From Gammaproteobacteria bacterium (GTDB lineage Bacteria > Pseudomonadota > Gammaproteobacteria > Steroidobacterales > Woeseiaceae), in NCBI GenBank assembly GCA_013151645.1, contig JAADHU010000066.1, positions 1-39,100 on the forward strand: 39,100 bases of DNA, read 5' to 3'. The notes beneath the pieces were generated by a model. It saw nothing but the letters and a program-made list of their open reading frames with translations, was not told where the DNA came from and made no database searches. Below are positions 4,126 to 38,923 of this stretch, piece by piece. A program made the translations under genes and the position numbers. How positions within the stretch are numbered: position 1 is the stretch's first letter; each line of letters begins with the position of its first letter.

Positions 4126-4146
4126 GCCGGCCTCCGGGGCCCGTCG

Positions 4147-5811: not shown

Positions 5812-5863
5812 GTCTCATCGTGTCCTTTACGGGCAACAGCCCGCCTGCCACCGATTGCTCGAA

Positions 5864-24756: not shown

Positions 24757-25519
24757 AAAAATAGGCGTCGCGATCAATGGGGCCAGGGATGCCGGTCGTA
24801 CGGCGCTCGTTCCGTATATCACGGCGGGTTACCCGGACACGGCGACGTTCGCCGACACACTGGAAGCAGTCAGCGCGGTCGGCGATGTGGTTGAAATCGG
24901 TGTGCCGTTCTCCGACCCCATGGCCGATGGCCTGACGATCCAGCGATCCAGCCATACAGCACTGAAAAACGGTGTGAGCCTGAAATGGATTTTCGATCAG
25001 CTCGATTTGACCAAGCCGCGAGTCGAGGTACCGCTGGTGTTGATGTCCTACGTCAATCCGTTGCTGGCTTTCGGCTACGATGAACTCGCTTCGCGAGCAC
25101 TGGCAAGCGGTGTTTGTGCTTTCATCGTTCCGGACTTGCCGCTGGAAGAAAGCGATGCATTGCGCACCGCACTCGAAGCAAAAGGAGTGGGTCTTATTCA
25201 GATGGTCACCCCGGCGACGCCCGACGACCGCCTCGCAAGACTCGCGCAGGCATCGTGCGGTTTCCTGTATGCCGTCACCGTGACGGGCATCACCGGTGGA
25301 GGCGCTGAGCCGTCAGACGACCTGCCGTTCTACCTCGACAAGGTAACGGCGATATCGCCATTGCCGGTCTGTGCCGGTTTCGGTATTCGCAAGGCCGCCG
25401 ATGTTGCCTCCGTTGGAGAACACGTGGCGGGCGTCATCGTGGGATCGGCGCTGGTCGAGGTTCTGGAGCGTGGCGAAGACCCGGCCGCTTTTCTCCGCGG
25501 CCTGATTCACGCGGCCTGA
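24743..25519 (+). CDS. trpA: Tryptophan synthase alpha chain
   Basis: Cleaves indole-3-glycerol phosphate to indole and GAP in complex with TrpB. The protein has 258 residues, with catalytic Glu and Asp in VVEIGVPFSDPMADGLTIQ, the loop PDLPLEES and the phosphate site VTGITGG ... GFGIRKAADV. The gene starts within the last codons of trpB (14-base overlap), which suggests translational coupling of the two subunits. A small DUF2007-like gene follows nine bases after its stop. Confidence 0.97.
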   Translation: MQAHEKIGVAINGARDAGRTALVPYITAGYPDTATFADTLEAVSAVGDVVEIGVPFSDPMADGLTIQRSSHTALKNGVSLKWIFDQLDLTKPRVEVPLVLMSYVNPLLAFGYDELASRALASGVCAFIVPDLPLEESDALRTALEAKGVGLIQMVTPATPDDRLARLAQASCGFLYAVTVTGITGGGAEPSDDLPFYLDKVTAISPLPVCAGFGIRKAADVASVGEHVAGVIVGSALVEVLERGEDPAAFLRGLIHAA

Positions 25520-25528
25520 TCGAACAGC

Positions 25529-25837
25529 ATGAAAAAAGTGACCTCTGCAGATTCTCTGATCACGATCAGCCACTACAAGAATATTCTGACCAGCGAAGGT
25601 ATTGAAGCCTTTCTGCGCAACGAACACCTGGGCAGCATTATCGGCGAAATGCCGTTTCAGGAAGTGTGGCCGGAGCTGTGGGTGGAAAACGATCTCGACT
25701 ACGAACGGGCGAAGCAGTTGATCGACGACTCAACGATTATTGACGAGAGTCCGCAAGCATCGTGGCGATGTAAAAACTGTGGTGAAGACAATGAGGGCCA
25801 GTTCGGAGTTTGCTGGGCCTGTGAACAAGCGCCCTAA
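25529..25837 (+). CDS. DUF2007-like protein with C-terminal zinc ribbon
   Basis: A 102-residue protein. The first 70 residues resemble the DUF2007 'signal transducing protein' fold (short alpha/beta unit, ...ADSLITISHYKNILTSEGI... then WPELWVENDLDYERAKQLI). The end has a RanBP2-like zinc finger, WRCKNCGEDNEGQFGVCWAC, with Cys81, Cys84, Cys95 and Cys98. Function is unknown; in this family the domain is thought to bind something small, but that is not established. It begins nine bases after trpA and is probably cotranscribed with the trp operon. Its stop overlaps the stop of the convergent VOC gene by two bases (TAA against TAG). Confidence 0.8.
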   Translation: MKKVTSADSLITISHYKNILTSEGIEAFLRNEHLGSIIGEMPFQEVWPELWVENDLDYERAKQLIDDSTIIDESPQASWRCKNCGEDNEGQFGVCWACEQAP

Positions 25838-26700
25838 CAGGTGGCGTCTGAACCCGGTCGGGCGACGAATTCAAGTACCGTATCGAACGCGGGTTCACGA
25901 ATGACCAGGCTTGCGGGTTCGACAGATGTGGGCCGCTGGCTAGTACGGGCAATGTCGCGAATCGTCGACAAGTCGCCCGTGGAGAGAGCCACAGCACCAA
26001 AAATCGCCGGCCTGGCCAACATCGCCGTTGCCAGATGAGCGTAGCGTTCCCGGTAGGCCGCCGGAGACAGAAAGGTAATTTGTGCCCCGTCCAATCTGAC
26101 GGCTGTACAATCGCCGGAATCCACAGCATCCGAGCGCAGTAGTGCAGCGAAGTCGTCGGCGATTCGGCGCTGGTCTTCGGCGACAATGACGACCTCATGG
26201 ATGCCCGAAACTCCATTCTCATGATGCTGATATTCAGGACGCCAAACGAGTTCAGGCGTCTGATGCTCGCAAAAATAGACTCGCCCTCCGGAGAACACAT
26301 CGCTTCGAAGCTGCACTGTACGAAAGCAAGCGTCTACGGTGCGACCAGCTAACTTCACCGGCCTGGAAAAAGATATCGGAGGTTCTCCCGCCATAGCCAA
26401 CGCCTGCAAATGAGCATAGGACTCATCTGCATTGGAGGTTTTCAGAACAAGCCCGTTAATTCCCGAACACGCATTGGCTATCTCCGGGCGACCCGGCTTT
26501 TCAGTGCTCGAATCGGCCGGCAGTCCGATTAATTCCAAATAGTCGCGGCCGAACATCATGAGATGATTAATCGACCCGAGCGTGTGATAGCCGCGTTCGG
26601 TCAACTGAAACCCCAGGTCTCTGAACGCGGTCTCTGCCCGGTCCATCTGATAGCGAACATTGACTACGACGTGATCAATCTGCGGGAGTGGAACTGACAT
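25834..26700 (-). CDS. VOC/glyoxalase-like domain protein
   Basis: A 288-residue protein of the vicinal-oxygen-chelate superfamily, nearest to the glyoxalase-like (PF13468-type) proteins. It opens with PQIDHVVVNVRYQMDRAETAF, and a second repeat-like block begins around GIHEVVIVAEDQRRIAD. Metal ligands are plausibly His in IDHVV, Glu in RDYLELIGL and His in GIHEVV, but I cannot assign them with certainty. It is the last gene of the 2-oxoacid oxidoreductase operon, 26 bases after the ferredoxin. VOC enzymes can isomerise, epimerise, lyse or dioxygenate, so its reaction is not inferred. Confidence 0.75.
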   Translation of the reverse strand: MSVPLPQIDHVVVNVRYQMDRAETAFRDLGFQLTERGYHTLGSINHLMMFGRDYLELIGLPADSSTEKPGRPEIANACSGINGLVLKTSNADESYAHLQALAMAGEPPISFSRPVKLAGRTVDACFRTVQLRSDVFSGGRVYFCEHQTPELVWRPEYQHHENGVSGIHEVVIVAEDQRRIADDFAALLRSDAVDSGDCTAVRLDGAQITFLSPAAYRERYAHLATAMLARPAIFGAVALSTGDLSTIRDIARTSQRPTSVEPASLVIREPAFDTVLEFVARPGSDATC

Positions 26701-26726
26701 AGGTACCTCACAGCGGTGTTCGGGTC

Positions 26727-27017
26727 TCAGGAAGGAATCATCTCACCTGCAGGTTCGCCGCCGTTCCTGAAAACCACGGGTCGTGCGCCCTTTTTAGCCA
26801 TTGTTCCGGCCTTCGCCAGATACTTTATCCTTTCCGGAGCGCAAGCATTCACCGGACACACTAACTTGCAGCGGGCCACCGGAAAATAGCCCTCGCAATC
26901 AATACAGAGGTTTTCATCGATAACGTACTGATTGTTTGCAGGTGCGATCGCACGGACCGGGCAGTCCATTTCGCAGGCACCGCAATTGATACATTCAGCC
27001 GTAATCATGTAAGACAC
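26727..27017 (-). CDS. Alvin-type 2[4Fe-4S] ferredoxin
   Basis: A 96-residue ferredoxin. The first cluster motif is normal (CINCGACEMDCP). The second has an expanded spacing, CIDCEGYFPVARCKLVCP, that is C-x2-C-x8-C-x3-C, which defines the Allochromatium (Alvin) group with unusually low redox potential. A C-terminal extension of about 30 residues carries no cysteine. It sits two bases after the flavoprotein gene, so the two probably work as an electron-transfer pair. Confidence 0.9.
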   Translation of the reverse strand: MSYMITAECINCGACEMDCPVRAIAPANNQYVIDENLCIDCEGYFPVARCKLVCPVNACAPERIKYLAKAGTMAKKGARPVVFRNGGEPAGEMIPS

Positions 27018-27019
27018 GA

Positions 27020-28312
27020 TCAGATGACCCGTTGTTCGAAGATGCCTTCAAGACCAGCAGAAGATACTCGTTTCGAAATGGCATCCAGATCCGTTGTATA
27101 CAGGTTTCGTTCCTTCATTCGATCAAAGTAGACGGAACCCGAGAACGTATACTTCTTGCACATACCCGCTTCAGTCTCCATTTCCTCGCGCACGTTTGTT
27201 ATCGCATCACCGGTCGCAAGGCTGTCAGGCAGGATTATTGGTTCCTTGCCGGCCATCGCTCGAACGGCATTGTGCCCACCCAGTGAACCGGTCACTATCG
27301 CTTCAGTATGTCCGACCAGTAGCCCGGCCTTTTCACCGCCGCAGAAAAGGTTGTCAATGTCGCCTTCCACGCGCAGCGCATCGTCGCGGGGTGCGAGGTT
27401 CGAGTAACGCATGGAATTGCCTAACGTTCCCGAATAAGGGTCGACATATTTGACCTCTTCCATGCCTGGAAGCTGGCGCAGTTTGTGCAGAGGCATGTAC
27501 GCCAGCATCAATTTGACGTGACCGGTATCCAGCAGGATCAGATTTTCGGCGAACGCCTTAAGGGCGTATTGCGCACAGGCTTTCGCACTTTGTTTGCTGT
27601 CGCTCACTTTCAACTCGTCGGGTAACGGAATGATCGCAAGGCCGGTCCTTTCCATCTCCTCAATAATCTCCGGTGCGATCGTTTCCTTACTCAGCTTGCA
27701 CGAACCACTCATGGCACCCAGGGTTCCGTCCGGCTTTTTGCCGTTGCGCTCAGCGATACCACACATTTCGACCAGACTGACCCGGGGACCGAACGTTGGA
27801 CATCGAATGACGCACATGACGCAGCCATTGCCGTTTTCAGTGCACTGGGATTGCGCACCACAGGATCCCGTGGTGTCCAGAAAAACATCGCCTTCAACGC
27901 GGGTTCCACCTTCGAGAAGAACCGCGTTTATGGAGCCGTTATCAATGTCCGCCTCTGTAATACGACTGAACGTCCAGATTTCGATGCCGTGTTCGACCAG
28001 GCAACGCCGCACCGCGGGTTCGATTTTCGATACATCGTAAAGAGATGCATGTTTGTGACCCGGAAATTCGATGTTCACGTGACGGGAGTTCCGGTCACAA
28101 ACCTCGAATAGATGGCCGGCGCCCAGCGCGATCATCTCTTCGGCTGCGGTGAATCTGCCGTTGTTACGCATAATTCCACCCACCAGCCCCGTACCCAACA
28201 GACTGTCCGTCCGCTCAAGAAGGATAACCTCCTCGGCACCCGCGTTCCTGGCCGTCAATGCGGCGGCCGACCCGGCCCAGCCCCCACCAACGATAACGAT
28301 ACGTTTGCCCAC
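27020..28312 (-). CDS. FAD-dependent oxidoreductase with Cys-rich motif
   Basis: A 430-residue flavoprotein. The N terminus has the dinucleotide motif RIVIVGGGWAGSAAALTARNAG followed by acidic LLERTD. The C-terminal half has NLFCGGEKAGLLVGHTEAIV, as in GidA/TrmFO-like and related FAD proteins. A cysteine cluster at 151-171 (C151, C157, C164, C167, C171 before Pro) has a C-x2-C-x3-C-P core like a [4Fe-4S] ligand set. I do not recognise a characterised member. Its place between the gamma-fusion and the Alvin ferredoxin suggests it moves electrons from or to ferredoxin, possibly onto an organic substrate. Two bases separate it from the ferredoxin and one from the gene upstream. Confidence 0.7.
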   Translation of the reverse strand: MGKRIVIVGGGWAGSAAALTARNAGAEEVILLERTDSLLGTGLVGGIMRNNGRFTAAEEMIALGAGHLFEVCDRNSRHVNIEFPGHKHASLYDVSKIEPAVRRCLVEHGIEIWTFSRITEADIDNGSINAVLLEGGTRVEGDVFLDTTGSCGAQSQCTENGNGCVMCVIRCPTFGPRVSLVEMCGIAERNGKKPDGTLGAMSGSCKLSKETIAPEIIEEMERTGLAIIPLPDELKVSDSKQSAKACAQYALKAFAENLILLDTGHVKLMLAYMPLHKLRQLPGMEEVKYVDPYSGTLGNSMRYSNLAPRDDALRVEGDIDNLFCGGEKAGLLVGHTEAIVTGSLGGHNAVRAMAGKEPIILPDSLATGDAITNVREEMETEAGMCKKYTFSGSVYFDRMKERNLYTTDLDAISKRVSSAGLEGIFEQRVI

Positions 28313-28313
28313 T

Positions 28314-29585
28314 TCATTCTCCCATCAAGGTTGTTCGAGTCACTGTGTAACCGGCCACTAAAGCATCAATATTTTTCGCGACCATCTTCCTGGGAAGCTT
28401 CAGGGCGACCATCTCTTTGATGGCCTCAAGTGAAACAAAATCGGCTACGGCCGCGATGCACCCCAATGAAACAATGCCGGCGGCAATGGGCTTTCCCACA
28501 AACTCCACCGCAATTTTAATGATTGGAATCGCCAGTGATTTTGCGGGAACCGACGTGACCTGATCGCTGTCCACGATCAAGTATCCCGATGGTTTTACCG
28601 AATCGGCGAACTGCTGCAACGAATTCTCGTTCAATACGACCAGAACATCGGGATTGTCCGCGCCGGGATAACCAATGCGGCGGCTGCCCGCGACCACGTC
28701 CACCACGCTTGGGCCCCCTCGAGTGGCCGAACCGTACGATCCTCTTTGGGTGGTCCAAAGACCCGCAAGATTTCCGGCAGCGTCGCTTAGTATCGAACCG
28801 GCCAGTTTCACGCCTTGTCCGCCGATACCGGCAATCTTGATTTCGTGCCGGGGAACGTTTCGTGAGGATGGCGAAAGATTTTGCTTGTCGACAATCGGCT
28901 GCGGGTTTGCGCTTTGATCGCTCACTCGCATGCTTTGCCGGAGAGATGCGGACCAGCGTCTGTAGGACTCGAAATATTCCGGCAAGTCGGTATGACTCAG
29001 GATGCCTCGTGGCAACCGGTTTTCGGAGGTAATGCCGATCATTGAAAAGCCTGGTTTGGCCATTGCCGCACTAATCAACTGCGTGAGCTGTGGAACGTCA
29101 TCAATCGATCCACGGGACACCGAAGAAGCTTCAAGACTGGTTGCCAGCTCCAGGGGGGTCGCCTTTTTTTCGATACTTTCCTGGAACCCGTATGAATGCC
29201 AGTTCGTGCGCTTGACGACGGATTTCTCTACAGCATCGGTAACTTCTGAGCGCAGTATCAGCAGCGTCATTCCCATATTGCGCCGCGCGGCATGGATCAG
29301 GTGGTTCATGCCTAAAGTGACGGCATCTGCATTCATGATCAATAGCAGCGGGGTATCGGGCAATGCGGCCCCAAGGCCGATTGCCAGCGCAATATTTCGC
29401 CCCGGCGGGCCGTGAATAAACGAAATGGGCGGGCCGGGAAAGTCCTGTTCGGGCAGTTCCGGCAGACTGGTCAGGATGAGCGGAAGTTTCGCGTGGTCAC
29501 CTGGCGCAGCCGCATCCGAAATCACTTTCATCAATGTGTGCCAGGTATCGGTATGAGCCGTTTTACGTTGCGTCGCCGTTCTCAT
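28314..29585 (-). CDS. 2-oxoacid:ferredoxin oxidoreductase gamma subunit fused to a degenerate TPP-domain beta-like half
   Basis: A 423-residue fusion. Residues about 245-423 are a gamma/KorC domain (KIAGIGGQGVKLAGSILSDA, then RGSYGSATRGGPSV and the PDVLVVLNE block). Residues about 55-200 resemble the beta subunit encoded in the same operon: the region around MNADAVTLGMNHLIHAARRN (84-103) aligns with the KorB Mg/TPP block containing GDGDAMSIGGNHLISAMRRN. Here GDGDA has become MNADA, and the NNSIYGLTGGQ block has become RSEVTDAVEKS. There is no CxxC for the Fe-S cluster either. The beta-like half therefore probably does not bind TPP. The ATG overlaps the korA stop by four bases. Confidence 0.85.
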   Translation of the reverse strand: MRTATQRKTAHTDTWHTLMKVISDAAAPGDHAKLPLILTSLPELPEQDFPGPPISFIHGPPGRNIALAIGLGAALPDTPLLLIMNADAVTLGMNHLIHAARRNMGMTLLILRSEVTDAVEKSVVKRTNWHSYGFQESIEKKATPLELATSLEASSVSRGSIDDVPQLTQLISAAMAKPGFSMIGITSENRLPRGILSHTDLPEYFESYRRWSASLRQSMRVSDQSANPQPIVDKQNLSPSSRNVPRHEIKIAGIGGQGVKLAGSILSDAAGNLAGLWTTQRGSYGSATRGGPSVVDVVAGSRRIGYPGADNPDVLVVLNENSLQQFADSVKPSGYLIVDSDQVTSVPAKSLAIPIIKIAVEFVGKPIAAGIVSLGCIAAVADFVSLEAIKEMVALKLPRKMVAKNIDALVAGYTVTRTTLMGE

Positions 29586-30724
29586 GGAGTGTTTCTCAGC
29601 TGCGCGGTCACCTCAGCAAGAATCTCCGCGGGCGTTATCTGGTTTCCGTCTGCTTTGTTCACTCCAACAACGGCGGCCTGGCCGGCGCTCAGACGTTCGA
29701 CTTCACTACGGACCTGACCAAAATTCAATTCAGGAACAACGATGCAGTTGACGTTTTCAGTGAGTTTTTTCACCCTTTTCTCTGGAAACGGCCAGATCGT
29801 TTGTAACTTGAGCAGACCGAGCTTGATACCTTGTTGACGAGCGATGGCAACCGCATGATCGGCCGCCATGGAGGTGCCGCCGTAGGCGATCAGCGCGATT
29901 TCGGCATCGTCAAGTTGTTTTTCTTCGTACAGGAGGATGTCGTCGAGATTGTCCTCTATCTTGCTGTGCATGTGCTCCCACCATTGAGCCACCAGCGCAG
30001 AATCCTCTGTCGGATAGCCCTTTTCGTCATGGGACAGCCCGGTAACATGGTATCGATAGCCCTCGCCGAACGTTGCAAGCGGAGCGACACCGCCTTTCGT
30101 AAAAGCGAATGCCTTATAGTCTTCGGGTGATTCCGTCGGCTTCGGTCGTGCGTATATATCCAGTTCACTGCTATGTGGAACCGAGATTTTTTCCTGCAAT
30201 GCTGAAACCAGTGCATCGGCCAGAAAAATAACAGGCGTTCGATATTTTTCCGCGAAATTGAACGCTTTCACCGTCAGATCGAAACAGTCCTGCACCGAAC
30301 CGGGACTCAGCGCAATGATGGGGTGATCTCCATGAGTTCCCCAACGAGCCTGCATGACGTCACCCTGTGCGGCCTTCGTCGGCAGGCCTGTGCTCGGTCC
30401 GACACGTTGTACGTTAATCACAACGCAGGGCACCTCGCTGCCGACCGCGTAACCCAGGTTTTCCTGCATCAGCGAGAAACCCGGTCCGCTGGTGGCGGTT
30501 GCCGACTTCAGCCCACCCAGCGATGCGCCGATAATGGCCGCCATACTGGCAATCTCATCTTCCATCTGCACGAAAACACCGCCGACCTCCGGCAGACGAT
30601 CCGAAAGAATTTCCGCAATTTCCGTTGACGGAGTAATGGGATAGCCCGCATAGAATCGACACCCGGCTGCAATAGCACCCTCGGCTATCGCCTGGTTACC
30701 GTACATGACTTCAAATTCGGCCAT
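29582..30724 (-). CDS. korA: 2-oxoacid:ferredoxin oxidoreductase alpha subunit
   Basis: A 380-residue KorA/PorA-type subunit. It opens with the pyrimidine-binding domain, YGNQAIAEGAIAAGCRFYAG then YPITPSTEIAE, and has VQMEDEIASMAAIIGASLGG and ATATSGPGFSLMQENLGYAV. The C-terminal domain II contains LLKLQTIWPFPEKRV and VPELNFGQVRSEV. It lacks a built-in gamma domain, which is supplied by the downstream fusion. The substrate 2-oxoacid cannot be assigned; resemblance is to 2-oxoglutarate-type KorA. It begins one base from the ferredoxin stop. Confidence 0.93.
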   Translation of the reverse strand: MAEFEVMYGNQAIAEGAIAAGCRFYAGYPITPSTEIAEILSDRLPEVGGVFVQMEDEIASMAAIIGASLGGLKSATATSGPGFSLMQENLGYAVGSEVPCVVINVQRVGPSTGLPTKAAQGDVMQARWGTHGDHPIIALSPGSVQDCFDLTVKAFNFAEKYRTPVIFLADALVSALQEKISVPHSSELDIYARPKPTESPEDYKAFAFTKGGVAPLATFGEGYRYHVTGLSHDEKGYPTEDSALVAQWWEHMHSKIEDNLDDILLYEEKQLDDAEIALIAYGGTSMAADHAVAIARQQGIKLGLLKLQTIWPFPEKRVKKLTENVNCIVVPELNFGQVRSEVERLSAGQAAVVGVNKADGNQITPAEILAEVTAQLRNTP

Positions 30725-30970
30725 CTAGTTTGCTTCCTTGTATTTGCTGTGTTCAGGGTGCTCCGGGGGCAGTATTTCGATGGCGAAATCCGGGCAATGC
30801 AACTCACACAATTTGCAATTTATGCAGTTCTGCAATCCAGGGGTTATCGGATAGAGTTCTTCGTCTTCAGCGAGCACGTCCTGCGGACACCAGGCAACGC
30901 ACAACCCACATGCCTTGCAATAATTCTTGTCGATTCGGATGTCAAAAACACCGTGTCGGATTTCAGTCAT
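30725..30970 (-). CDS. 2[4Fe-4S] ferredoxin subunit of 2-oxoacid oxidoreductase (KorD-like)
   Basis: An 81-residue ferredoxin with two regular 4Fe-4S motifs, CKACGLCVAWCP and CINCKLCELHCP, the delta-subunit type that takes electrons from the beta-subunit cluster. Its start overlaps the end of korB by eight bases and it runs directly into korA, so it is part of the complex rather than a free carrier. Confidence 0.92.
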   Translation of the reverse strand: MTEIRHGVFDIRIDKNYCKACGLCVAWCPQDVLAEDEELYPITPGLQNCINCKLCELHCPDFAIEILPPEHPEHSKYKEAN

Positions 30971-31892
30971 CGGGACGGCCCGCGTGTTCTTTCTGTGCCC
31001 TGATATTTTCCAACATCGAAAAGTATCGGCGGCTGAAGCCGACAGACCCCTTATTCTCGAAAATCACTCCACGATCTTTTGTATCGGCGGCGACTGAGCT
31101 TTGAGCTGCATCGCTATTGGAGTCGCGTAGATACGTTTTGCCCGTCGCCGTCTCGCGTACCGGGTACGAGGCACGTTTTTTCAATAGCGGATTGCTGCGC
31201 ATGGTCTCTTTGTCCATGTTCGCAATCATTCCGGATGCCACCGGCTGTTCGTTCATCTTTCCGTAGAGAACATGGCAATTGCTGATGATCTCTACCAACG
31301 CGAAGCCCGAAATATTCAATGCTCTTTCGATGAGCTTCGTCAGAGAGGCCGTGTGATTGACGGTGGCACGGGCGAAAAACGGTGCACCTCCGGCACGCGC
31401 GAGCACTTCGAGATTCATGGGTCTCTCGAAGGTACGATGCCTGGCGGTCGTGGTACGGCTATCCATTGGCGTCGTCGGCGATGACTGTCCACCGGTCAAT
31501 CCGTAAATACTGTTGTTCACCACGATCGCCGTGATGTCCATGTTTCTGCGCATGGCACTGATCAGGTGGTTTCCGCCGATCGACATGGCATCACCATCGC
31601 CCATAATGGTGATGACCTGCATGTCCGGCCGAGCCAGCTTCAAGCCGGTCGCAAAAGCGGGTGCTCGTCCATGCGTCGTATGTATGGAATTGAAATCCGT
31701 GTAGCCGGACATGCGTCCGGTACAGCCAATCCCGGAAACCATCGCGACATCGTCTTTCTTCAGCCCTTGATAGTGAATGGCCTCGACGATCGAACGCATG
31801 ATGATGCCGAGACCGCAACCGGCGCACCAGGTTGTCGGCAGCGTTTCGGGACGCATGTAGTCGCGAAGAATATGGGATGTCTGCAGGGTCAC
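30963..31892 (-). CDS. korB: 2-oxoacid:ferredoxin oxidoreductase beta subunit
   Basis: The catalytic TPP/Fe-S subunit, 309 residues. Cluster ligands are in WCAGCGLGII (Cys23, Cys26) with a further Cys in SGIGCTGR (Cys57). The TPP-Mg motif is GDGDAMSIGGNH (98-109) followed by NNSIYGLTGGQSSPTTP. It decarboxylates a 2-oxoacid to an acyl-CoA and reduces ferredoxin. The start is GTG at 31892, with AGAGGA about 12 bases upstream; an internal ATG at 31856 is the alternative. It is the first gene of a seven-gene operon whose promoter carries an operator palindrome. The C-terminal about 60 residues are longer than in minimal KorB. Confidence 0.93.
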   Translation of the reverse strand: MTLQTSHILRDYMRPETLPTTWCAGCGLGIIMRSIVEAIHYQGLKKDDVAMVSGIGCTGRMSGYTDFNSIHTTHGRAPAFATGLKLARPDMQVITIMGDGDAMSIGGNHLISAMRRNMDITAIVVNNSIYGLTGGQSSPTTPMDSRTTTARHRTFERPMNLEVLARAGGAPFFARATVNHTASLTKLIERALNISGFALVEIISNCHVLYGKMNEQPVASGMIANMDKETMRSNPLLKKRASYPVRETATGKTYLRDSNSDAAQSSVAADTKDRGVIFENKGSVGFSRRYFSMLENIRAQKEHAGRPDD

Positions 31893-31942
31893 GGTTCGGC
31901 TTTTCCTCTGTGCACGACGTCGGCATTACGATGAGACCGGGC

Positions 31943-31978
31943 GAGCCATATTGTATATTGTATACAATATGGAAGCAA
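31943..31978 (-). promoter_or_regulatory. kor operon promoter with overlapping TTGTATACAA operator
   Basis: On the minus strand, TTGCTT (31978-31973) and TACAAT (31955-31950) are separated by exactly 17 bases, a good sigma-70 promoter. The whole spacer and -10 box are covered by an inverted repeat, CCATATTGTATA (31946-31957) against TATACAATATGG (31961-31972) around TTG. A perfect 16-bp palindrome, ATATTGTATACAATAT, lies at 31955-31970. TTGTATACAA-type sites are typical for FadR-subfamily GntR proteins. The divergent GntR gene is the obvious ligand, acting as a repressor by position. Confidence 0.75.
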
Positions 31979-32253
31979 CGCATCATGATCGCCCGCCGCT
32001 CGGTCCGACAACGACCGACCGCGTCCGTTGATGAGCAGGCTCGATTGATGCTTTCCCCAGTCGAACACCCGCTGATTTAGCCGGTTAAAGCGATTTCTCG
32101 TGCGGGTGATGAGCAGGCCAGCCAGACAATTTTCACTCCAGGACGACAAAGCCAGCGCTCCGGGGTGTGAGCAAATGGTATACAATATTCGTCAATACGG
32201 AATATATAACGAGGTCAGAAAGTGACCGGGAATTACAGGAACTCTTGTCGAAA
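31979..32253. promoter_or_regulatory. Divergent region between kor operon and gntR, with second operator-like site
   Basis: The full gap between korB and the GntR gene is about 360 bases, and I find no gene in it. A second operator-like sequence, TGGTATACAATATT, lies at 32176-32189 and differs from the korB site by one base in the ten-base core. The 12-base TGATGAGCAGGC occurs twice in direct orientation, at 32029-32040 and 32107-32118. Autoregulation of gntR through the 32176 site is likely but inferred. Confidence 0.5.
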
Positions 32254-32997
32254 ATGAGCAATGACGAAGCAGGTTTGGCCGATGACGACCCGGATCAAAG
32301 GCCGTCGTGGGCCCAGATCGGCGCATCGCACAAGTCATTGAATCATGCCGTAACCGACGCTTTGCGACAGGCAATACTGAACGGCGAATTCAAACCCGGT
32401 GAAAGACTGACGGAAGCCAGTCTGGCGGCGACTTTTAACGTTTCCCGCAACCCGATAAGAGATGCTCTGCGAGCTTTGCAGGTTGAGGGAACGGTAGAAA
32501 GAACTCCGCGCAAGGGTGCCCGTGTGCCGTTGTTATCGTTGGGGGAAGTTGAAGAAATTATTGAGCTCAGAGCCGAGCTTGAAGGGATGAGCGCGAAATA
32601 CGCCGCGCGCCGGTGTAACGAGGAATCGCGTGCCTTCTTGAGAACGCTGTTGGACAGAGGCAATCGGGCCGCGAAACAGAATGATACCGAGTTGCTACAG
32701 GCGTGTAACAACCAGTTTCATCAGTCTTTCGCCCAGATAGGCAAGAACCGATTTCTGGCCGGATTCATGAAATCACTGAATGAAAAAACCCAGTGGCTGT
32801 TTGCAAAAAGGTCTGAAAAGCGCGTGACCGAAAACTGGAAAGAACACGCGGCGATTCTGAAGGCCGTTATCGCGGCCGACGGAGAGTTGGCCTCAGTGCT
32901 CGCGGTTCGCCATGTCGAGGAACTCGGTGAAGAAATAACCAAAAGAATGATTGCATCCAATCAGTCAGATCCGTCAATCGAATCCCAAACAACGTAA
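32254..32997 (+). CDS. GntR-family (FadR subfamily, FCD domain) transcriptional regulator
   Basis: A 247-residue regulator. The winged helix-turn-helix spans roughly residues 25-95: DALRQAILNGEFKPGERL, then LAATFNVSRNPIRDALRALQ and TPRKGARV. A helical FCD effector domain follows (EIIELRAELEGMSAKYAA, NNQFHQSF, EHAAILKAV). The frame is open back to a GTG at 32167, but that start would lie in an operator-like site, so ATG 32254 is preferred. TTG at 32245, four or five bases after AGGAA, is a real alternative. It probably senses an organic acid and controls the divergent kor operon. Confidence 0.88.
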   Translation: MSNDEAGLADDDPDQRPSWAQIGASHKSLNHAVTDALRQAILNGEFKPGERLTEASLAATFNVSRNPIRDALRALQVEGTVERTPRKGARVPLLSLGEVEEIIELRAELEGMSAKYAARRCNEESRAFLRTLLDRGNRAAKQNDTELLQACNNQFHQSFAQIGKNRFLAGFMKSLNEKTQWLFAKRSEKRVTENWKEHAAILKAVIAADGELASVLAVRHVEELGEEITKRMIASNQSDPSIESQTT

Positions 32998-32998
32998 C

Positions 32999-33031
32999 AA
33001 GCGGCGCAAACCACTCTACCGAACGCCGCTT
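32999..33031. terminator. Hairpin at the gntR / SDR convergent junction
   Basis: AAGCGGCG at 32999-33006 and CGCCGCTT at 33024-33031 are perfect complements around a 17-base loop. They sit between the gntR stop and the SDR stop, which lies in the right arm. There is no T-tract on either side, so termination activity is uncertain. Confidence 0.4.
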
Positions 33032-33734
33032 ATGCAATGGATCTGGCAAGCCCGCCGTCGACTTTGATATTTTGACCGGTGACGTAGCTGGCGCCATCCG
33101 ACAACAAAAATGCCGCGACATCGGCGATCTCTTCAACGTTTCCATAACGACCCATCGGTACCCGGGAACGTCGCTCCTCCTTTTCCGGCAAACTGTTGAT
33201 AAATCCCGGCAAGACCGCGTTCATCCGGATGTTAACCGGAGCGTAAAGATCCGCATACAGCTTTGTCCAGGCGCCAACGGCTGCTCGCAACACGGTCATG
33301 GGAAAATCGCTTTCCGGTTCAAACGCGCAATATGACGATATGTTCACAATCGCGCCGCCGCCGTTTTCAATCAAATAAGGGGTTGCCAGTTTCGCCATTC
33401 GAATGACGCTCAGCAGATTCATTTCAAAACCTGCGTGCCAGTCGTCGTCGCTGAGTTCGAGCAACGGTCCTTTCGGGGCGTGACCTGCGCTGTTCACGAT
33501 CGCGTCAATGTGACCGTAAGTATCGATGCTAAGTTGAATCAGTTTCTCAATATCCTCCGGATCCGTAATCGAACCCTGAAGGGCGATACCACCCAGTTCG
33601 TCGGCCAGTTTGTTGATCTTCTCTGTCCGCGACATCAATGCAACTTTATAGCCATCAGCCACGAGTTTCCTGGCAATGCCCGCGCCAATTCCACTTCCCG
33701 CGGCCGTTACGATCGCAATCTTCGATTCACTCAT
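33030..33734 (-). CDS. SDR-family protein lacking the YxxxK catalytic pair
   Basis: A 234-residue short-chain dehydrogenase/reductase fold. The cofactor loop is VTAAGSGIGAG (9-19), NSAG lies at 81-84, the active-site Ser region is VNISSY (S133/S134), and the C-terminal GQNIKVDGGLA is typical. At the normal spacing of 13 from Ser133, the Tyr position is Met146, and the Lys position is Arg150 (MTVLRAAVGAW). Classical oxidoreduction would be impaired. It could still bind NAD(P) and a substrate. It is convergent with gntR and follows, on the same strand, the DadA-like gene after a 100-base gap. Confidence 0.82.
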   Translation of the reverse strand: MSESKIAIVTAAGSGIGAGIARKLVADGYKVALMSRTEKINKLADELGGIALQGSITDPEDIEKLIQLSIDTYGHIDAIVNSAGHAPKGPLLELSDDDWHAGFEMNLLSVIRMAKLATPYLIENGGGAIVNISSYCAFEPESDFPMTVLRAAVGAWTKLYADLYAPVNIRMNAVLPGFINSLPEKEERRSRVPMGRYGNVEEIADVAAFLLSDGASYVTGQNIKVDGGLARSIA

Positions 33735-33834
33735 ATACTTGTCGCTCCCTCAATTCACGCCCTGTAATCGGCGCAACGTAAACAACCATTGCATTCGAAT
33801 ATACGCACTACCATCGAATATTTGCAACCAGCAC

Positions 33835-35031
33835 CTATGCAAACCGCTCTGGCCGATAGGGGCTTAGCAGGTCTACCGAAATACCGTCAAGAATTTCACG
33901 GCTAATGCTCTGTCCGACTATCGGCGCCAGCGTAACCCCGCTATGCATGACGGCGACATAAATATCGGTACGGTCCGGAACGAAGCCAACAATCGGAAAA
34001 TCGTCTTTCGGTAGCGGACGAAAACCCAGTGTAAGGTGATCCAGGGCGGTACCTCGGGAATCGGGCAGTACCGTCGATATCTTGTCGAGAATCCGCAGGC
34101 CGTGCATATCGCGAATATCGTCGCTCGGGAAATCAAGGCGCTCGTGACGTATATCGTAGTGAATCGGAGTATCCGGTGCGTACGCGCTATCCGCCGCGAC
34201 GATAACCCCGCTCTTCAATTGTTTGAAATGAAGACCCGAACCATAGTTCACTGTTCCAATCATCGGCCGAGCGGGAACGCTATGCGCGAGAATACCGGGT
34301 GAGTGCACTAGTGGCGGCCGATAGCCCAGCTGCGAAGATAAAACCGGTACGTCCACACCACTCGCAATGACCAGTCGATCAAACGAAAAAGACCCCCGGC
34401 TCGTACTGACACCGCTCAAGCGATTACCGCTAAGTTCGATTTCATCGACCGCGCAGGGGTAGATCACTCGTGCCCCGTGTTTTTCCGCCTGCGCCAGAAA
34501 TTTGCGAGTAACGCCCACGGGATCGAGGTGACCATCCATCTCGCCGTAAACCGCGACCTCGAAAGGCCCCGGCAAAACATTCGGTGCAATCGCGGCGAAA
34601 TCCGTCGAACTTAACAATCTGAGAGGATACCCGCCGTTACTGAAACGTTCGGCCTGGTCACGAAGCCTGGCCACGACCTCAGGATCGCTCTCCCAATTGA
34701 GGTAGCCGCCCCACGTAATATCCAATTGAAGTTGCTGGTCCAACTCGTGGTACGCAGCAATACTCCGTAGACGAAAATTCCGATAGTGAGCGTTATCGCT
34801 GTACGCATTCAACCACGCAAAAGAGTCACCTGTCGCACCACTCGCCGGGGCAGTTTTCTCAAACACCGTGACATCAGCACCCGCCTGCGCCAAATGCATC
34901 GCGATCGACGCGCCGACAATTCCGCCGCCAACTACGCCAACAGAAAGGCGCGAAGTCGCCGCCATGAGTACCTTAGGTACGGCCGCAATAGCAGCACCCC
35001 CGAGCAATAAGTTTCTTCGAATCAGGTCCAT
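33835..35031 (-). CDS. FAD-dependent DadA-like amino-acid oxidoreductase with Tat-type signal
   Basis: A 398-residue DAO-fold flavoprotein. Residues 1-26 form a Tat-like signal: an RR pair in LIRRNLLLGGAAIAAVPKVL with a small-residue end (LMAAT). The FAD motif is VGVVGGGIVGASIAMHLAQAG then VTVFEK. The C-terminal LGFRPLPKDDFPIVGFVP and MHSGVTLAPIVGQ are typical of D-amino-acid dehydrogenase and related imino-acid oxidases. It probably oxidises a D-amino or cyclic imino acid in the periplasm. The ATG at 35031 has GAGG eight bases upstream. The substrate is not determinable. Confidence 0.82.
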   Translation of the reverse strand: MDLIRRNLLLGGAAIAAVPKVLMAATSRLSVGVVGGGIVGASIAMHLAQAGADVTVFEKTAPASGATGDSFAWLNAYSDNAHYRNFRLRSIAAYHELDQQLQLDITWGGYLNWESDPEVVARLRDQAERFSNGGYPLRLLSSTDFAAIAPNVLPGPFEVAVYGEMDGHLDPVGVTRKFLAQAEKHGARVIYPCAVDEIELSGNRLSGVSTSRGSFSFDRLVIASGVDVPVLSSQLGYRPPLVHSPGILAHSVPARPMIGTVNYGSGLHFKQLKSGVIVAADSAYAPDTPIHYDIRHERLDFPSDDIRDMHGLRILDKISTVLPDSRGTALDHLTLGFRPLPKDDFPIVGFVPDRTDIYVAVMHSGVTLAPIVGQSISREILDGISVDLLSPYRPERFA

Positions 35032-35262
35032 CGACTTAACCTCGTCGTATTTTTTTGGTCTCTAAGTTTGTTCCCTTTTACATTATTATTCACGTTCGTT
35101 CGGAGAAAAGCACGCGCCACCCAAAATGCGGAACTCGTCGTGTCGACCGGGATTAACGAAGCGACGGACGGTTTCGCGTTACTTGCGCTGCTTTCATGCC
35201 TCAGGCAAAGTGACGCGAAAATGGCTTGCGTGAAGCCGACTCTTACTAACTATTAGTTCGTT
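35032..35262. promoter_or_regulatory. Divergent intergenic region with long inverted repeat
   Basis: The gap between the divergent DadA-like and SDR genes. It contains TTTCGCGTTACTT at 35172-35184 and AAGTGACGCGAAA at 35208-35220, a 13-bp stem with a single G-T pair and a 23-base loop. It could be an operator for a dimeric regulator, or a transcript hairpin in front of the SDR gene. The TTGTATACAA motif is not present here. Confidence 0.45.
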
Positions 35263-36036
35263 ATGCAGCTGAACCTGAAAATGAAAAAGGCTTTTGTCCT
35301 TGGCTCAAGCTCCGGCCTGGGAAAAGCCATTGCACTAAAGCTCGCGGCGGAAGGCGCCGCAGTGGTCATTGCCGGTCGCGATGAAAGTAAGTTGCAGCAA
35401 GCCAGCAAAGACACTGGCGCGGTGGCGGCAATTGCAGGTGATCTGACCATACCGGGCGAACCCGAGCGAATGGTCCGTGAGGCCGCGGCGTCCCTGGGCG
35501 GCCTGGATATCATCGTTATTAACTCCGGTGGCGGCGGGCCGGGAACGCTGGGTGAATCAACGAACCACGCAAGAGAGAATGCCTATCACGCGATGTTACG
35601 CCCGGCAATCGATGCGGCGACCGCCGCTATCCCCTTCTTGCGAGAGTCGCACTCGGGTCGTATGCTTTTCGTCACTTCCAGGTCCGTTGTTGAAGCCACG
35701 ACCGAACTCGCACTCTCGTCCGTTTATCGCAGCGGTGTCGCCGCTGCAGCACGATCGCTGGCACTCGAACTGGCGCCAAAAGTCCTCGTGAACGTAATTG
35801 TGCCGGGGCAGTTCGACACGCCCGCCTATCATAAATTTCAAGCCTGGCTGGCGGCAACCGATGGCGTTAGCGAAGCCGAAGTCGCACGCAAGCAGATGTC
35901 AGCGATACCACTCGGTCGACTGGGAACGGCCGATGAGCTCGCCGACGTGGTTACCTTTTACTGCAGCGAACGATCCAGTTTCGTCACCGGAACGGTCATT
36001 CGCGTCGATGGCGGCGCCGTTGTCGGCTTTCACTGA
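35263..36036 (+). CDS. SDR-family protein with atypical catalytic residues
   Basis: A 257-residue SDR fold. The cofactor loop is LGSSSGLGKAIALKL (13-27), and NSGGGGPG replaces the usual NNAG motif. S139 lies in FVTSRSV. Where YxxxK is expected, the sequence reads SSVYRSGVAAAARSLALELA: the Lys position is Arg156 and the Tyr position is Ser152, with Tyr155 next to it. The C terminus FVTGTVIRVDGGAVVGFH is normal. The neighbouring SDR at 33030 also has Arg at the Lys position. The start may instead be ATG 35281; neither has a good ribosome-binding site. It converges on the DapA-like gene with eight bases between. Confidence 0.82.
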   Translation: MQLNLKMKKAFVLGSSSGLGKAIALKLAAEGAAVVIAGRDESKLQQASKDTGAVAAIAGDLTIPGEPERMVREAAASLGGLDIIVINSGGGGPGTLGESTNHARENAYHAMLRPAIDAATAAIPFLRESHSGRMLFVTSRSVVEATTELALSSVYRSGVAAAARSLALELAPKVLVNVIVPGQFDTPAYHKFQAWLAATDGVSEAEVARKQMSAIPLGRLGTADELADVVTFYCSERSSFVTGTVIRVDGGAVVGFH

Positions 36037-36044
36037 ACGCAAAG

Positions 36045-36971
36045 TCAGTCAGGCGAAATCCGGTAAGCGTACTTTTTGTCGAGTTCCAGCCTACGGCTGA
36101 TCTCCAGCCCGACCGCCAATGCAGGCGAGGACAGGGCCTTTAACGGTTTGCGCAGCGGACCGGCCGGTAGACCCAGTGCCCGCATCAGCGTTTTCAATGA
36201 CACGGGGTTGACCACGGAATAAAGAAAATGAAGCAACGGCAGATTTTCAAGCCAGGTTTCACGACACGCCATCGCATCGCGCCATTCACGCCAGGGCGTG
36301 GAGATCACCGCCATTTCACGAGGAATCACGTTTCCCGACATATTGGCCGTGCCATTACCCCCTAACGACATCAACGGAATAACCAGACCAAGATTCGGGC
36401 TGTCACAGCACATCAACGACATGTCAGGATGGCCAGCAATCGTTTGCGCCACCTGACCGGTTCTGGAGGTCGACTCTTTGTTGACGACGATGTTTGGGTG
36501 TTCGGCCAGCTTTAATAATGCGGTATGCGAAAGATCGGTCCGCACTCTGGGTGGATTATTATAAATGCCGACAGGAATCGGACTTTCGTCGGCGACCTCA
36601 ACAAAATAATCCACGATATCGTTCTCCGGTGCCGCGATATAGGCGGGGGCTGCAACGATGGCACCGTCTGCTCCTTCACTCGCGGCCGCACGGCAATAAT
36701 CGATTGTTTGCTGCGTATTGGTGCCGGTGCAACCGAACCACAATTCAACGTCCTTCGGCTTCATTTTAGAAGTGAGCGACATGATTTCCAGGCGTTCTTC
36801 GGGCGACAGCATTGACACTTCGCCCGTCGAACCCATGATCAGAATTGCGGATGTATTATTCTCCGCCTGAAACTCCAGCAGACGCCGAAACCCGCCGTAA
36901 TCAACCGAGTAGTCGTCATTCATTGGTGTAATCAGCGCAACGAAGGAGCCTTCGATTTTGTTCTGTCTCAT
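36045..36971 (-). CDS. Dihydrodipicolinate synthase/N-acetylneuraminate lyase family aldolase or dehydratase
   Basis: A class I (Schiff-base) TIM-barrel lyase of 308 residues. The Schiff-base Lys165 is in VVNKESTSRT, Tyr137 in IYNNPPRVRTD, Tyr111 in APAYIAAP, and GSTGE at 47-51 corresponds to GTTGE. The spacing of Tyr137 to Lys165 equals that in E. coli DapA (133 to 161), and R142 matches its carboxylate-binding Arg138. As a second DapA in a catabolic setting, it more likely acts on a sugar acid, a hydroxyproline-derived imine or a similar 2-oxoacid than on lysine synthesis. Its substrate is unresolved. It diverges from the transporter gene. Confidence 0.88.
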   Translation of the reverse strand: MRQNKIEGSFVALITPMNDDYSVDYGGFRRLLEFQAENNTSAILIMGSTGEVSMLSPEERLEIMSLTSKMKPKDVELWFGCTGTNTQQTIDYCRAAASEGADGAIVAAPAYIAAPENDIVDYFVEVADESPIPVGIYNNPPRVRTDLSHTALLKLAEHPNIVVNKESTSRTGQVAQTIAGHPDMSLMCCDSPNLGLVIPLMSLGGNGTANMSGNVIPREMAVISTPWREWRDAMACRETWLENLPLLHFLYSVVNPVSLKTLMRALGLPAGPLRKPLKALSSPALAVGLEISRRLELDKKYAYRISPD

Positions 36972-37198
36972 CTACTCGAATCCCGAATCCGTTTTCCTGA
37001 TCGCATTCGTCGCGATCAGATGATTTGCCGAAACATACGCGCCGGGCCCCAAAAAAGAAACTTTTGGGCAACGAAGCCGCAGGCGGCTTCGGTCATTCGA
37101 AAGTGATGCTACCATCCGATTCCTTGACCGATCAGGCAGTCGGCCTATCGACTGCATCGAAAGCACCCTGTCGGGGAACTCGGAGTACGGGACATCTA
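36972..37198. promoter_or_regulatory. Divergent intergenic region with stacked inverted repeats
   Basis: The region between the DapA-like and transporter genes. Three inverted repeats are visible: CTGATCGC/GCGATCAG at 36997-37004 and 37012-37019; GCCC-c-AAAA/TTTTGGGC at 37046-37054 and 37062-37069; CGAAGCCGC/GCGGCTTCG at 37072-37080 and 37083-37091. The last two form back-to-back hairpins. They may be operators or a dispersed repeat element; none has a following T-tract on the plus strand. Confidence 0.5.
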
Positions 37199-38656
37199 AT
37201 GGAAAAAATACAATTGACCGCATCGCACTGGGTTTTCCTGCTGGCCGTGTTGTCGATCCTTCTGTCCGTGGTGTTTCGAAAGGGCGTCATAATTATCTCA
37301 ATCGTGGCCACGTTCATTCTCGGTTTGTTGTCCGACGGCGGTGGCGGCGGATTCTTCAATCAGGTCATATTTTCGGTTCAGGTCGTATTCAAGGCGCTGT
37401 TGAACGCCGGTTCTGCACTATTCGACATCATGTTGGTTGTTGCGCTGATGGTCGCAATGTTGCGGTCTTTGCAGGCTCAAGGCGCCGATAAAATCATGGT
37501 CGCACCCATGATGAAACTGATGGCAGGGCCGTGGTCCGCCTTTTTTGTACTGGCGACCACCATGTACATTGCGGCCGCGTTCTTCTGGCCAACGCCCGCC
37601 GTCGCACTCGTGGGCACGGTGCTGATTCCGGTCGCGATGCGCGTTGGATTGCCCGCGATCGCCGCGGCTGTATCGGTGAACCTCGCCGGGCACGGCATGG
37701 CTCTGTCGGCCGACCCGATCATACAGGGTGCAACTCGTCTGACGGCCGGTGCTGCGGGTATCGAGCCCGGCGAGCTGCTTCCGTATACCTTGCTTTTCTC
37801 ATTGGTAACCGGTGGCGTCGCGATCTCTCTGGCCTGTCTGACCATCCGCCGCGATATGCGCAGCGGGGCTTTGGTCGCGCCCACAGAGGATGAAATCGAT
37901 CACCTGATTTCGACCGTATCCGATCAGAACAGCGGCGCATTAGAGGAAAAAAACTCGAGTCGATATGCTCGTGTTTTCGCGATCGCCGTGCCGGCCATTC
38001 TAATCGGCATTGCGTTGCTCATGATTTACAGGGCCCTGTTTAACCCGGCTGAAGCGATTCTTGGCGACTCTGCATCCGCTCTGCTTGGCGGCACCGCGAC
38101 GATCATTCTGGTGCTATCCACATTTGCAGCGCAGGGCATGCGCGCAATGGACGGGATCGCGGACCATACTCGGGATGGGTTTTACTTCGCCGTCAAAATA
38201 TTCGCGCCGATTATTCCCATCGCCGGGTTCTTCTTCCTCGGCAACCCGGATCACGCCGTAACCGTATTGGGTGAGGGTACGCCGGGTTTCCTGTTCGATA
38301 TCGGACATGTCGTGGGCAGCCACGCCGACGGCAATGTTGTAGTACTGGCTTTCGGTGTGACGTTAGTCGGTATGTTGGCGGGACTGGATGGGTCCGGATT
38401 TTCCGGGTTGCCATTGATCGGTTCACTATCCGCGGCGCTGGCTCTCGGCGCAGGTGTAAAACTTCCGGTGCTTGCCGCACTTGGACAGGTGGTAACCATA
38501 TTCACCGGAGGAGGTACGCTGGTTGCGTGGGCATTTGGCGCTTGCGCGGATGCCGGTATGTCCGGAATAACACCCGCGGCCCTGGTTCGACGAAATGTCA
38601 TGCCGGTTTTTTCCGGGCTGTTCGTCGTTACCGTTCTTGCAATATTCTTGCTGTGA
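37199..38656 (+). CDS. Polytopic carboxylate-type transporter (ion transporter/DcuC-GntP-like)
   Basis: A 485-residue integral membrane protein with about 11-13 hydrophobic segments. The frame is open from 37025, but that part is non-membranous and covers the inverted repeats, so the ATG at 37199 (MEKIQLTASHWVF) is chosen. Two pseudo-symmetric halves contain re-entrant-like loops, AGHGMALSADPIIQGATRLT and GLDGSGFSGLPLIG, and PTPAVALVG. This pattern suits the ion transporter superfamily (DcuC, GntP, CitMHS), but I cannot place it in a named family. A small organic-acid substrate is inferred from the neighbouring lyase and oxidase genes. Confidence 0.7.
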   Translation: MEKIQLTASHWVFLLAVLSILLSVVFRKGVIIISIVATFILGLLSDGGGGGFFNQVIFSVQVVFKALLNAGSALFDIMLVVALMVAMLRSLQAQGADKIMVAPMMKLMAGPWSAFFVLATTMYIAAAFFWPTPAVALVGTVLIPVAMRVGLPAIAAAVSVNLAGHGMALSADPIIQGATRLTAGAAGIEPGELLPYTLLFSLVTGGVAISLACLTIRRDMRSGALVAPTEDEIDHLISTVSDQNSGALEEKNSSRYARVFAIAVPAILIGIALLMIYRALFNPAEAILGDSASALLGGTATIILVLSTFAAQGMRAMDGIADHTRDGFYFAVKIFAPIIPIAGFFFLGNPDHAVTVLGEGTPGFLFDIGHVVGSHADGNVVVLAFGVTLVGMLAGLDGSGFSGLPLIGSLSAALALGAGVKLPVLAALGQVVTIFTGGGTLVAWAFGACADAGMSGITPAALVRRNVMPVFSGLFVVTVLAIFLL

Positions 38657-38923
38657 TCGACCGATCTGAATATTTTCCGACGGCGAAAAATATCGAAAAA
38701 CACCCTGTATCGCACAGGGCGTCTGCCGGTTCTGGCTGAAAAAGGGACGGCGGTGGAAGGCAACGGGGCATCGCAGATATGAACCGTCGTGAATCGTTTG
38801 ATGCAAGTGATACAAAATTCGACTGATCTGTTATAGCCGGTTTTGTATGGACAACATAAGTAAACAGCGGTGTGATTGGGGGGACGATCAAATACTCTTT
38901 CAACCGCTTTTGAGGTGAATGCC
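38657..38923. promoter_or_regulatory. Intergenic region with hairpin, upstream of the TonB receptor
   Basis: CCCTGT (38703-38708) and ACAGGG (38714-38719) form a 6-bp stem with a 5-base loop. A runs lie on its left, so as read it would terminate minus-strand rather than plus-strand transcription. An imperfect palindrome, ATATTTTCC...GGCGAAAAATAT, lies just before. The ribosome-binding site GAGGTG at 38912-38917 precedes the receptor ATG by six bases. No promoter was confidently assigned. Confidence 0.4.

Follow-up and report, generated by a model that had tools for sequence, protein, structure and literature searches.

In a structural study of the Sulfolobus tokodaii enzymes (PMC5020499), 2-oxoacid:ferredoxin oxidoreductases (OFORs) are described as dimers of identical protomers, and their types are given as a2, (ab)2, (abc)2, (abcd)2 'or other types'. 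According to the same text, the TPP of solved OFORs is located between alpha and beta; the dimer interface of StOFOR is made of domains I, II and VI, with the two TPPs 16.5 Å apart. In StOFOR1/2, domain III (gamma) is part of the alpha chain, and TPP, Mg and a [4Fe-4S] cluster are all bound by beta. Half-of-the-sites behaviour is described for the TPP enzyme E1p (PMC2663715).

Here we describe an operon in which a KorB-like domain devoid of cofactor ligands (pseudo-beta) is fused to the gamma subunit, KorC. This operon shares alpha, a catalytic beta, gamma and a ferredoxin-like delta with KorDABC/OorDABC (PDB 8ys5, Helicobacter pylori): 8ys5_C is the best solved relative of its KorB, and 8ys5_B is among the best for its gamma domain. 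It differs from KorDABC/OorDABC by the fusion of pseudo-beta to gamma, by the gene order B-D-A-(PG), and by a FAD protein and a second ferredoxin. With StOFOR1/2 (PDB 5b46-5b48), the pseudo-beta domain shares the beta fold. The phenylglyoxylate:NAD+ oxidoreductase PadEFGHI is an OFOR with a flavoprotein subunit; however, the operon described here falls far under the NCBIfam cut-offs for this enzyme (PadE 40.4/300, PadG 87.6/700 and PadI 37.1/700 bits). A literature search, with most subscription papers outside its reach, found neither an inactive OFOR beta subunit nor a beta-gamma OFOR fusion.

Organization of the operon

The window is the whole stretch of DNA analysed, 39,100 nucleotides in length. 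The genes of the operon and its immediate neighbours are, in order of transcription from the divergent regulator:

32167..32997, (+): divergent GntR/FCD regulator (Pfam)
30963..31892, (-): korB, catalytic beta subunit; GDGD, NNSIYGLTGGQ and all four cluster cysteines present
30725..30970, (-): fdx1, korD-like ferredoxin with two 4Fe-4S motifs (profiles)
29582..30724, (-): korA, intact alpha subunit (NF006412, 568 bits, cut-off 411)
28314..29585, (-): pseudo-KorB + KorC (gamma) fusion gene, 423 aa, ATG start, without internal stop
27020..28312, (-): FAD protein, GidA-like FAD fold with a Cys-rich insert (PF01134, E 6e-25)
26727..27017, (-): fdx2, YfhL-like ferredoxin, found in all 4 other fusion loci whose contig extends there
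25834..26700, (-): VOC/glyoxalase-3 protein (profile), end of the gene run

The window thus encodes all four subunits (alpha, beta, gamma and delta), with alpha and beta catalytically complete. A defective catalytic korB was ruled out, as GDGD, NN and the four cysteines are all kept. This gene, which a preliminary description of the locus had placed two genes upstream of the fusion, is the third gene upstream, fdx1 and korA lying in between. The VOC/glyoxalase-3 protein was without a match in the five other fusion loci presented below.

The fusion protein comprises a KorB-like domain and a gamma domain

The fusion gene can be divided into three parts:

28941..29585, (-): pseudo-beta domain, residues 1-215 (PF02775 and KorB profiles, VIA-align to 5b47_B)
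28851..28940, (-): low-confidence linker, about residues 216-245 (pLDDT <50 at 215-240 in model 1 and at 222-239 in model 2)
28314..28850, (-): gamma (KorC) domain, residues 246-423 (PF01558 and 3on3_B, see below)

Residues 55-183 matched TPP_enzyme_C (Pfam PF02775; E 6e-9, 36.3 bits, cut-off 21.9) and residues 255-413 matched POR/gamma (Pfam PF01558; E 1.2e-31, 110.6 bits, cut-off 27.4). The best KorB profile matched residues 57-189 (E 1.1e-13), with a score far under its curated cut-off. The NCBIfam cut-off of TIGR02177 (PorB_KorB) was missed by the pseudo-beta domain (47.4 vs 261.9 bits) and likewise by the operon's own catalytic KorB (191.9 bits), and that of TIGR02175 was missed by the gamma domain (59.3 vs 81.1 bits). 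A single BLASTP comparison of the pseudo-beta domain with the operon's KorB gave 29% identity over 145 columns (E 6e-14). The solved structures matched by the first half of the fusion are OFOR beta subunits (8ys5_C, 5b46_B, 5b48_B, 6n2n_B), and those matched by its second half are OFOR gamma subunits (3on3_A and others).

An AlphaFold2 model built from the five full-length fusion proteins (model 1) had a mean pLDDT of 71.5 and a pTM of 0.46. When compared by VIA-align, its residues 7-234 superimposed on the StOFOR beta subunit 5b47_B (Z 17.5, 3.9 Å, 201 aligned) and its residues 244-421 on the gamma subunit 3on3_B (Z 24.1, 2.4 Å, 171 aligned). A second model, in which KorB and KorC rows were added to the input (pLDDT 78.4, pTM 0.49), agreed with the first, these added rows biasing it towards a KorB/KorC-like outcome. 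As the pTM is low (0.46), the mutual placement of the pseudo-beta and gamma domains is left undefined by the model. VIA-align also placed the model on residues 8-614 of one-chain PFORs, with an rmsd near 15 Å. An alpha-type (PYR) domain was ruled out for residues 1-215, since the sequence profiles name KorB and not POR_N. The resemblance to KorB first noticed by direct reading is therefore clear in the TPP_enzyme_C and KorB profiles and in the fold match, and these data confirm that residues 1-215 are a KorB-like TPP domain joined by a linker to KorC (gamma).

In the gamma domain, one near-invariant column out of 22, N370, is altered in all five full-length fusions. This residue (within 28314-28850) is Asn in 38/39 classical gamma subunits and Gly in 5/5 fusion gammas.

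A rare fusion family

Relatives of the fusion were sought by several routes. When genome contigs were scanned directly with the fusion protein, 20 pattern matches came up, none of them a relative. Genomes of the same phylum (398), family (107) and order (396), in sets that overlap and each contain the window's own genome, were searched as well, and no other fusion was among the matches listed (cut-offs E 1e-8 for the family and E 1e-20 for the order; the phylum and order searches mostly scored the four best candidates per genome). The matches were to separate KorB and KorC genes, and the one that spanned both domains (G518) proved to be two adjacent genes with a stop between them. A plasmid search returned 12 records, none of which covered 80% of the query.

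The FAD protein and its Tepidibacter relative provided the bridge: four of the 80 loci kept, out of 321 FAD loci confirmed in the contig scan, carry a full fusion within the same gene order:

L074, titled Pseudomonadales MAG: fusion 61% identical to that of the window
L075 and L076, titled Acidimicrobiia MAGs: fusions 47 and 46% identical
L077, titled Anaerolineales MAG: fusion 46% identical

Order-level searches (E 1e-40) around the genomes of L077 (241 genomes) and L075 (138 genomes) added one member, L176, found in the latter set. L176 has a whole pseudo-beta domain; its gamma part and korA are interrupted by unread bases, and its contig stops within the FAD gene. The contig of L076 starts inside korA, and a korB-ferredoxin pair of the same genome lies on another contig (L158). 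The family therefore has at least six members including the window, five of them full length, and more may exist beyond the 80 loci kept and the genomes searched. The fusion is rare, conserved and of single origin, and is present in records titled Pseudomonadales, Acidimicrobiia and Anaerolineales (three phyla). For the alpha subunits of these operons, 17 classical KorAs served as reference: they share 54 near-invariant columns, none of which has disappeared from all five of the operon KorAs compared (L176 not being among them).

Cofactor ligands are lost and a helix is retained

The six pseudo-beta domains were compared with a reference alignment of 57 KorBs (59 were found, and two very divergent ones were left out), in which 49 columns are near-invariant (>=85% in the 57 KorBs). 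Seventeen of these 49 columns are kept in the pseudo-beta domains (6/6). Two elements are relevant here:

29325..29336, (-): MNAD replacing the GDGD Mg/TPP motif, residues 84-87 (alignment with the 57 KorBs)
29277..29312, (-): kept KorB helix GMNHLIHAARRN, residues 92-103 (KorB form GxNHLIHAARRN)

The GDG Mg/TPP motif is found in 59/59 collected KorBs and in 0/6 fusion proteins, so none of the six members found retains an intact motif. The Mg-ligand Asp is replaced by Asn in the window and by Ala or Ser in its relatives, and the second Gly by Ala in all six. The preliminary reading of GDGDA turned into MNADA holds for the loss of GDG; however, the alignment sets G-D-G-D-A against gap-N-A-D-A, the M belonging to the preceding residue. 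In StOFOR2, the Mg ligands are GDG 89b-91b and Asn118b (PMC5020499). We assigned Asn118b to KorB column 127 by its equal 28-residue spacing from the Asp; this column is Asn in 57/57 aligned KorBs and Ser or Ala in 6/6 pseudo-betas. The NNSIYGLTGGQ loop is missing, as first noted and as confirmed by the alignment with KorBs. The four [4Fe-4S] cysteines (KorB columns 23, 26, 57 and 206) are gone in all six, which bears out the earlier remark that no cluster cysteine remains, and the N-terminal CxGCG cluster segment is deleted whole, beyond the loss of its cysteines. The pseudo-beta of L077 has one Cys, away from any ligand column. The His of HGR is Pro in all six, which share two new invariants: GPPGR in place of HTxHGR, and an Arg at the first N of the NN pair. 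The loop at residues 118-142 has a predicted pLDDT <50. The fusion and the loss of ligands are thus conserved together in every member.

The helix that follows the GDG site is retained. Within columns 105-117, 7 of 9 near-invariant columns are kept vs 10 of 40 elsewhere (Fisher p 0.005, for a block picked post hoc after inspection of the alignment). The preliminary description had reported that the fusion mirrors the TPP-Mg block of the korB product, including GxNHLI-A-RRNM, and for this helix it was right. In TPP enzymes, this helix sits between the two active sites.

A C-terminal motif kept by the pseudo-beta domain

A second KorB element is conserved near the end of the domain:

28950..29006, (-): residues 194-212 of pseudo-beta, with the C-terminal motif GxLx(5)PEYx(3)Y of KorB

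In its strict form, GxLx(4)(R/K/E)x(D/E/Q)Yx(3)Y, this 19-residue motif is present near the end of 17/53 classical KorBs; among the 36 others, 2 score >=20, 17 score 10-20 and 17 score <10, like controls that are not KorBs. The motif is thus common in KorB and not universal. The pattern was framed after a side-by-side view of KorB and pseudo-beta tails, and the score was built from KorB rows only. The best match in 6/6 pseudo-betas falls at one place (residues 194-212 in the window's fusion protein), and its score was reached by 0/2000 shuffles for five members and by 1/2000 for L076. By comparison, the catalytic KorBs of the six fusion operons score -1.9 to 7.7, which is at background (3.0 to 10.0 in four control proteins unrelated to KorB). 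Their eight neighbours in the KorB tree all have the strict motif, so the motif was lost on the side of the operon KorBs. The dead copy has kept an element lost by the live copy, as expected if both share one job. We also considered whether the motif is the 283-305 arm of StOFOR beta, described in PMC5020499 as crossing to the other protomer; this identification was not retained, as the motif aligns to StOFOR beta just up to residue 274, short of the arm.

The dead domain lies in the usual slot of korB

Gene order was derived from tblastn maps of 84 loci with a KorB match, and ten loci fetched twice were removed for distinct counts. Wherever alpha, beta and gamma are separate, the order is A-B-G (33/33 distinct loci), with D first where the stretch extends there. 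The complete fusion loci have the order B-D-A-(P-G) in 5/5 distinct cases (the window being also present as L001), and none of them shows the order (D)ABC with a separate gamma gene. The other loci comprise 28 with A-B only, 4 with B-D-A, 1 with B-D, 1 with B-G and 1 with B alone; the four B-D-A and the B-D loci are short pieces of fusion operons. L076, without a KorB on its contig, is outside this count. The comparison of B-D-A-(pseudoB-C) with (D)ABC therefore puts the dead domain in korB's usual slot, with a working korB added in front.

Phylogeny and selection

A tree of 65 rows included the 6 pseudo-beta domains and the 6 operon KorBs, L158 standing for the KorB of L076. The pseudo-beta group and the operon-KorB group each had 100/100 support, and they branch alike, L077 with the window and L074, and L076 with L075 and L176; two inner pseudo-beta forks are weak (93/75 and 90/70, under 80 by SH-aLRT). 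The gamma domains of the five fusions also group together in a quick tree (99 SH-aLRT) with the same branching order; the two changes counted in the gamma tree table are due to the window's copy being entered twice. The operon KorBs branch beside eight KorBs from genomes of L077's order (95/96). The pseudo-beta branch amounts to 3.8 changes per column, and the tree program flagged long branches and, for 4/6 pseudo-beta rows, an unusual residue composition. With a branch of this length, it is not recoverable whether pseudo-beta and the operon KorB come from the same korB.

The dN/dS values (NG86) of the pseudo-beta domain were 0.119, 0.136, 0.246, 0.302 and 0.177 for five pairs; KorB gave 0.04-0.11, and gamma gave 0.18-0.25 in three defined pairs, a further one being undefined. 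Since dS exceeded 1 in all defined comparisons but one, these values are rough. Codon position 3 changes most in every pair compared. Both the tree and dN/dS show that pseudo-beta evolves faster than KorB. These data indicate that pseudo-beta is under purifying selection and is held more loosely than KorB. At 0.12-0.30, dN/dS agrees with the expectation of a domain kept by selection rather than decaying, and the initial description of a degenerate KorB fused to gamma is now supported by Pfam, KorB profiles, tree, alignment and dN/dS.

The FAD protein associated with the fusion

The FAD gene directly follows the fusion in all six members. In the window and in Tepidibacter, which provided the single plasmid relative, the FAD protein has an insert C-x6-C-x2-C-x3-C, perhaps a cluster site. 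Apart from the window's own genome, all class genomes searched (368 of 369) were without a match to the gene at E <=1e-25. Of the 80 FAD loci kept (321 were confirmed), 69 show neither an alpha nor a beta nor a gamma gene within the stretch examined; conversely, 29 of the 33 classical OFOR loci are without a FAD relative in the stretch examined (16 of these stretches being just 2-4 kb long), and 4 have one 3-5 kb away. As it is mostly found without OFOR genes nearby, the FAD protein looks like a module recruited by the fusion OFOR. In L077, a second FAD gene with a YfhL-like ferredoxin copy (4091-5819) lies directly before the fusion operon. In many Clostridia, relatives of the FAD protein stand beside a B12-binding protein, a KamB-like reactivase and paired Rid proteins; this recurring gene set, without a named pathway, also has a protein weakly similar to DgaE-type PLP lyases.

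Possible role of the pseudo-beta domain

The conservation of a dead copy suggests a separate function for it, probably in assembly of the complex. We tentatively propose that the product of the fusion gene is a pseudo-beta-gamma subunit without catalytic activity, belonging to a 2-oxoacid:acceptor oxidoreductase, with pseudo-beta in one beta position of an asymmetric complex. An extra korB would have taken over catalysis and the old KorB would have turned into a structural half, which, via the kept helix and C-terminal motif, would fill one beta position out of the two in the alpha2beta2 core. The complex would have one TPP site, the flexible linker would hold gamma, and the cofactor-free half would dock the FAD protein and fdx2, which would take the electrons. 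With helix and C-terminal motif kept and the cofactor ligands gone, pseudo-beta could still fill a beta position; an asymmetric alpha-beta/pseudo-beta complex, as the preliminary description had suggested, fits the evidence from gene slot, helix and tail, from which we infer its stoichiometry and asymmetry. The matching trees, dN/dS and the 5b47_B fold match also speak for this placement, as do the StOFOR interface and TPP spacing (PMC5020499) and the E1p half-of-the-sites behaviour (PMC2663715). However, pseudo-beta evolves faster, the C-terminal motif is not universal in KorB, and the 283-305 arm is outside the aligned part. The part ascribed to the kept helix at the interface is putative. 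Gamma carried by the inactive half would lie at a distance from the active site, an uneasy arrangement should closure of this site depend on gamma. Finally, as the six members descend from one event, the association of pseudo-beta with the FAD protein counts once.

The main alternative, which we regard as somewhat less likely, is a symmetric alpha2beta2 core with two active sites, pseudo-beta being an extra domain attached to gamma that either serves as a dock for the FAD protein and fdx2 or orders gamma. The position of the fusion directly before the FAD gene in 6/6 members, the classical loci that do without a FAD relative (29/33, with the short stretches noted above) and the predicted flexibility of the linker (low pLDDT) would all suit it, as would the 69/80 FAD loci without OFOR genes, which make the FAD protein look like an added module needing an anchor; yet KorB residues are best conserved in the helix that follows the GDG site and in the C-terminal motif, not on a new surface. 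That pseudo-beta binds a cofactor or ligand through other residues (TPP without GDG, CoA or a nucleotide), in a catalytic or allosteric capacity, could account for the new invariants GPPGR and Arg in 6/6 members, but with the Mg Asp, the Mg Asn, the His of HGR and the TPP loop all lost, and with loop 118-142 predicted at low confidence, we consider it very unlikely. We give an equally low probability to a relic, i.e. an N-terminal domain carried as neutral baggage on gamma after a korB duplication: the rarity of the fusion and its faster evolution compared to KorB would agree with it, whereas a dN/dS of 0.12-0.30, similar to that of the gamma domain, and blocks invariant across records of three phyla do not. 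An assembly or annotation artefact has a negligible probability; the named relatives are metagenome bins and L176 has unread bases in several genes, but five full-length copies without internal stops come from unrelated assemblies, and the stop flagged in L076 is its own terminal stop.

If pseudo-beta does occupy one beta position, a more specific version, which we consider unlikely, is a permanently asymmetric OFOR in which one beta site is catalytic and the other has been emptied into a dock for the FAD protein and its ferredoxin, the two halves doing different jobs (2-oxoacid oxidation versus electron delivery by flavin, with bifurcation as a possibility). Built-in asymmetry could arise in an OFOR from a conserved dead beta attached to gamma, and such asymmetry would be a natural test of whether the two thiamine sites of the superfamily need each other. 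The fusion also marks a set of operons that tie an OFOR to a FAD protein. What is new here is the conserved, single-origin fusion family, its B-D-A-(pseudoB-C) slot, the purifying selection, and the kept helix and C-terminal motif.

Genomic surroundings

The G+C content of the window drops from ~0.60 to ~0.54 at 25.5 kb, beside trp genes, and stays at ~0.54 to the contig end, which fits acquisition by transfer. The OFOR operon, the GntR gene, two SDRs, a DAO, a DapA-like gene and a transporter (25500-39100) look like one acquired island. The DapA-like gene at 36045 has relatives in L075 (60%) and L176 (58%). An acetolactate-synthase-like TPP enzyme adjoins the fusion operon in 3/6 members (L075:4606-6354, L176:7965-9764 and L074 from 11405) and lies near the FAD gene in 8/80 loci. 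These pathway neighbours, the DapA-like gene and the acetolactate-synthase-like enzyme, point to no nameable OFOR substrate. The membrane transporter at 37025-38656 is without a Pfam or NCBIfam match at the thresholds used; it is related to a transporter cluster located near the FAD gene in 32/80 loci (32/32 match, best 48% identity).
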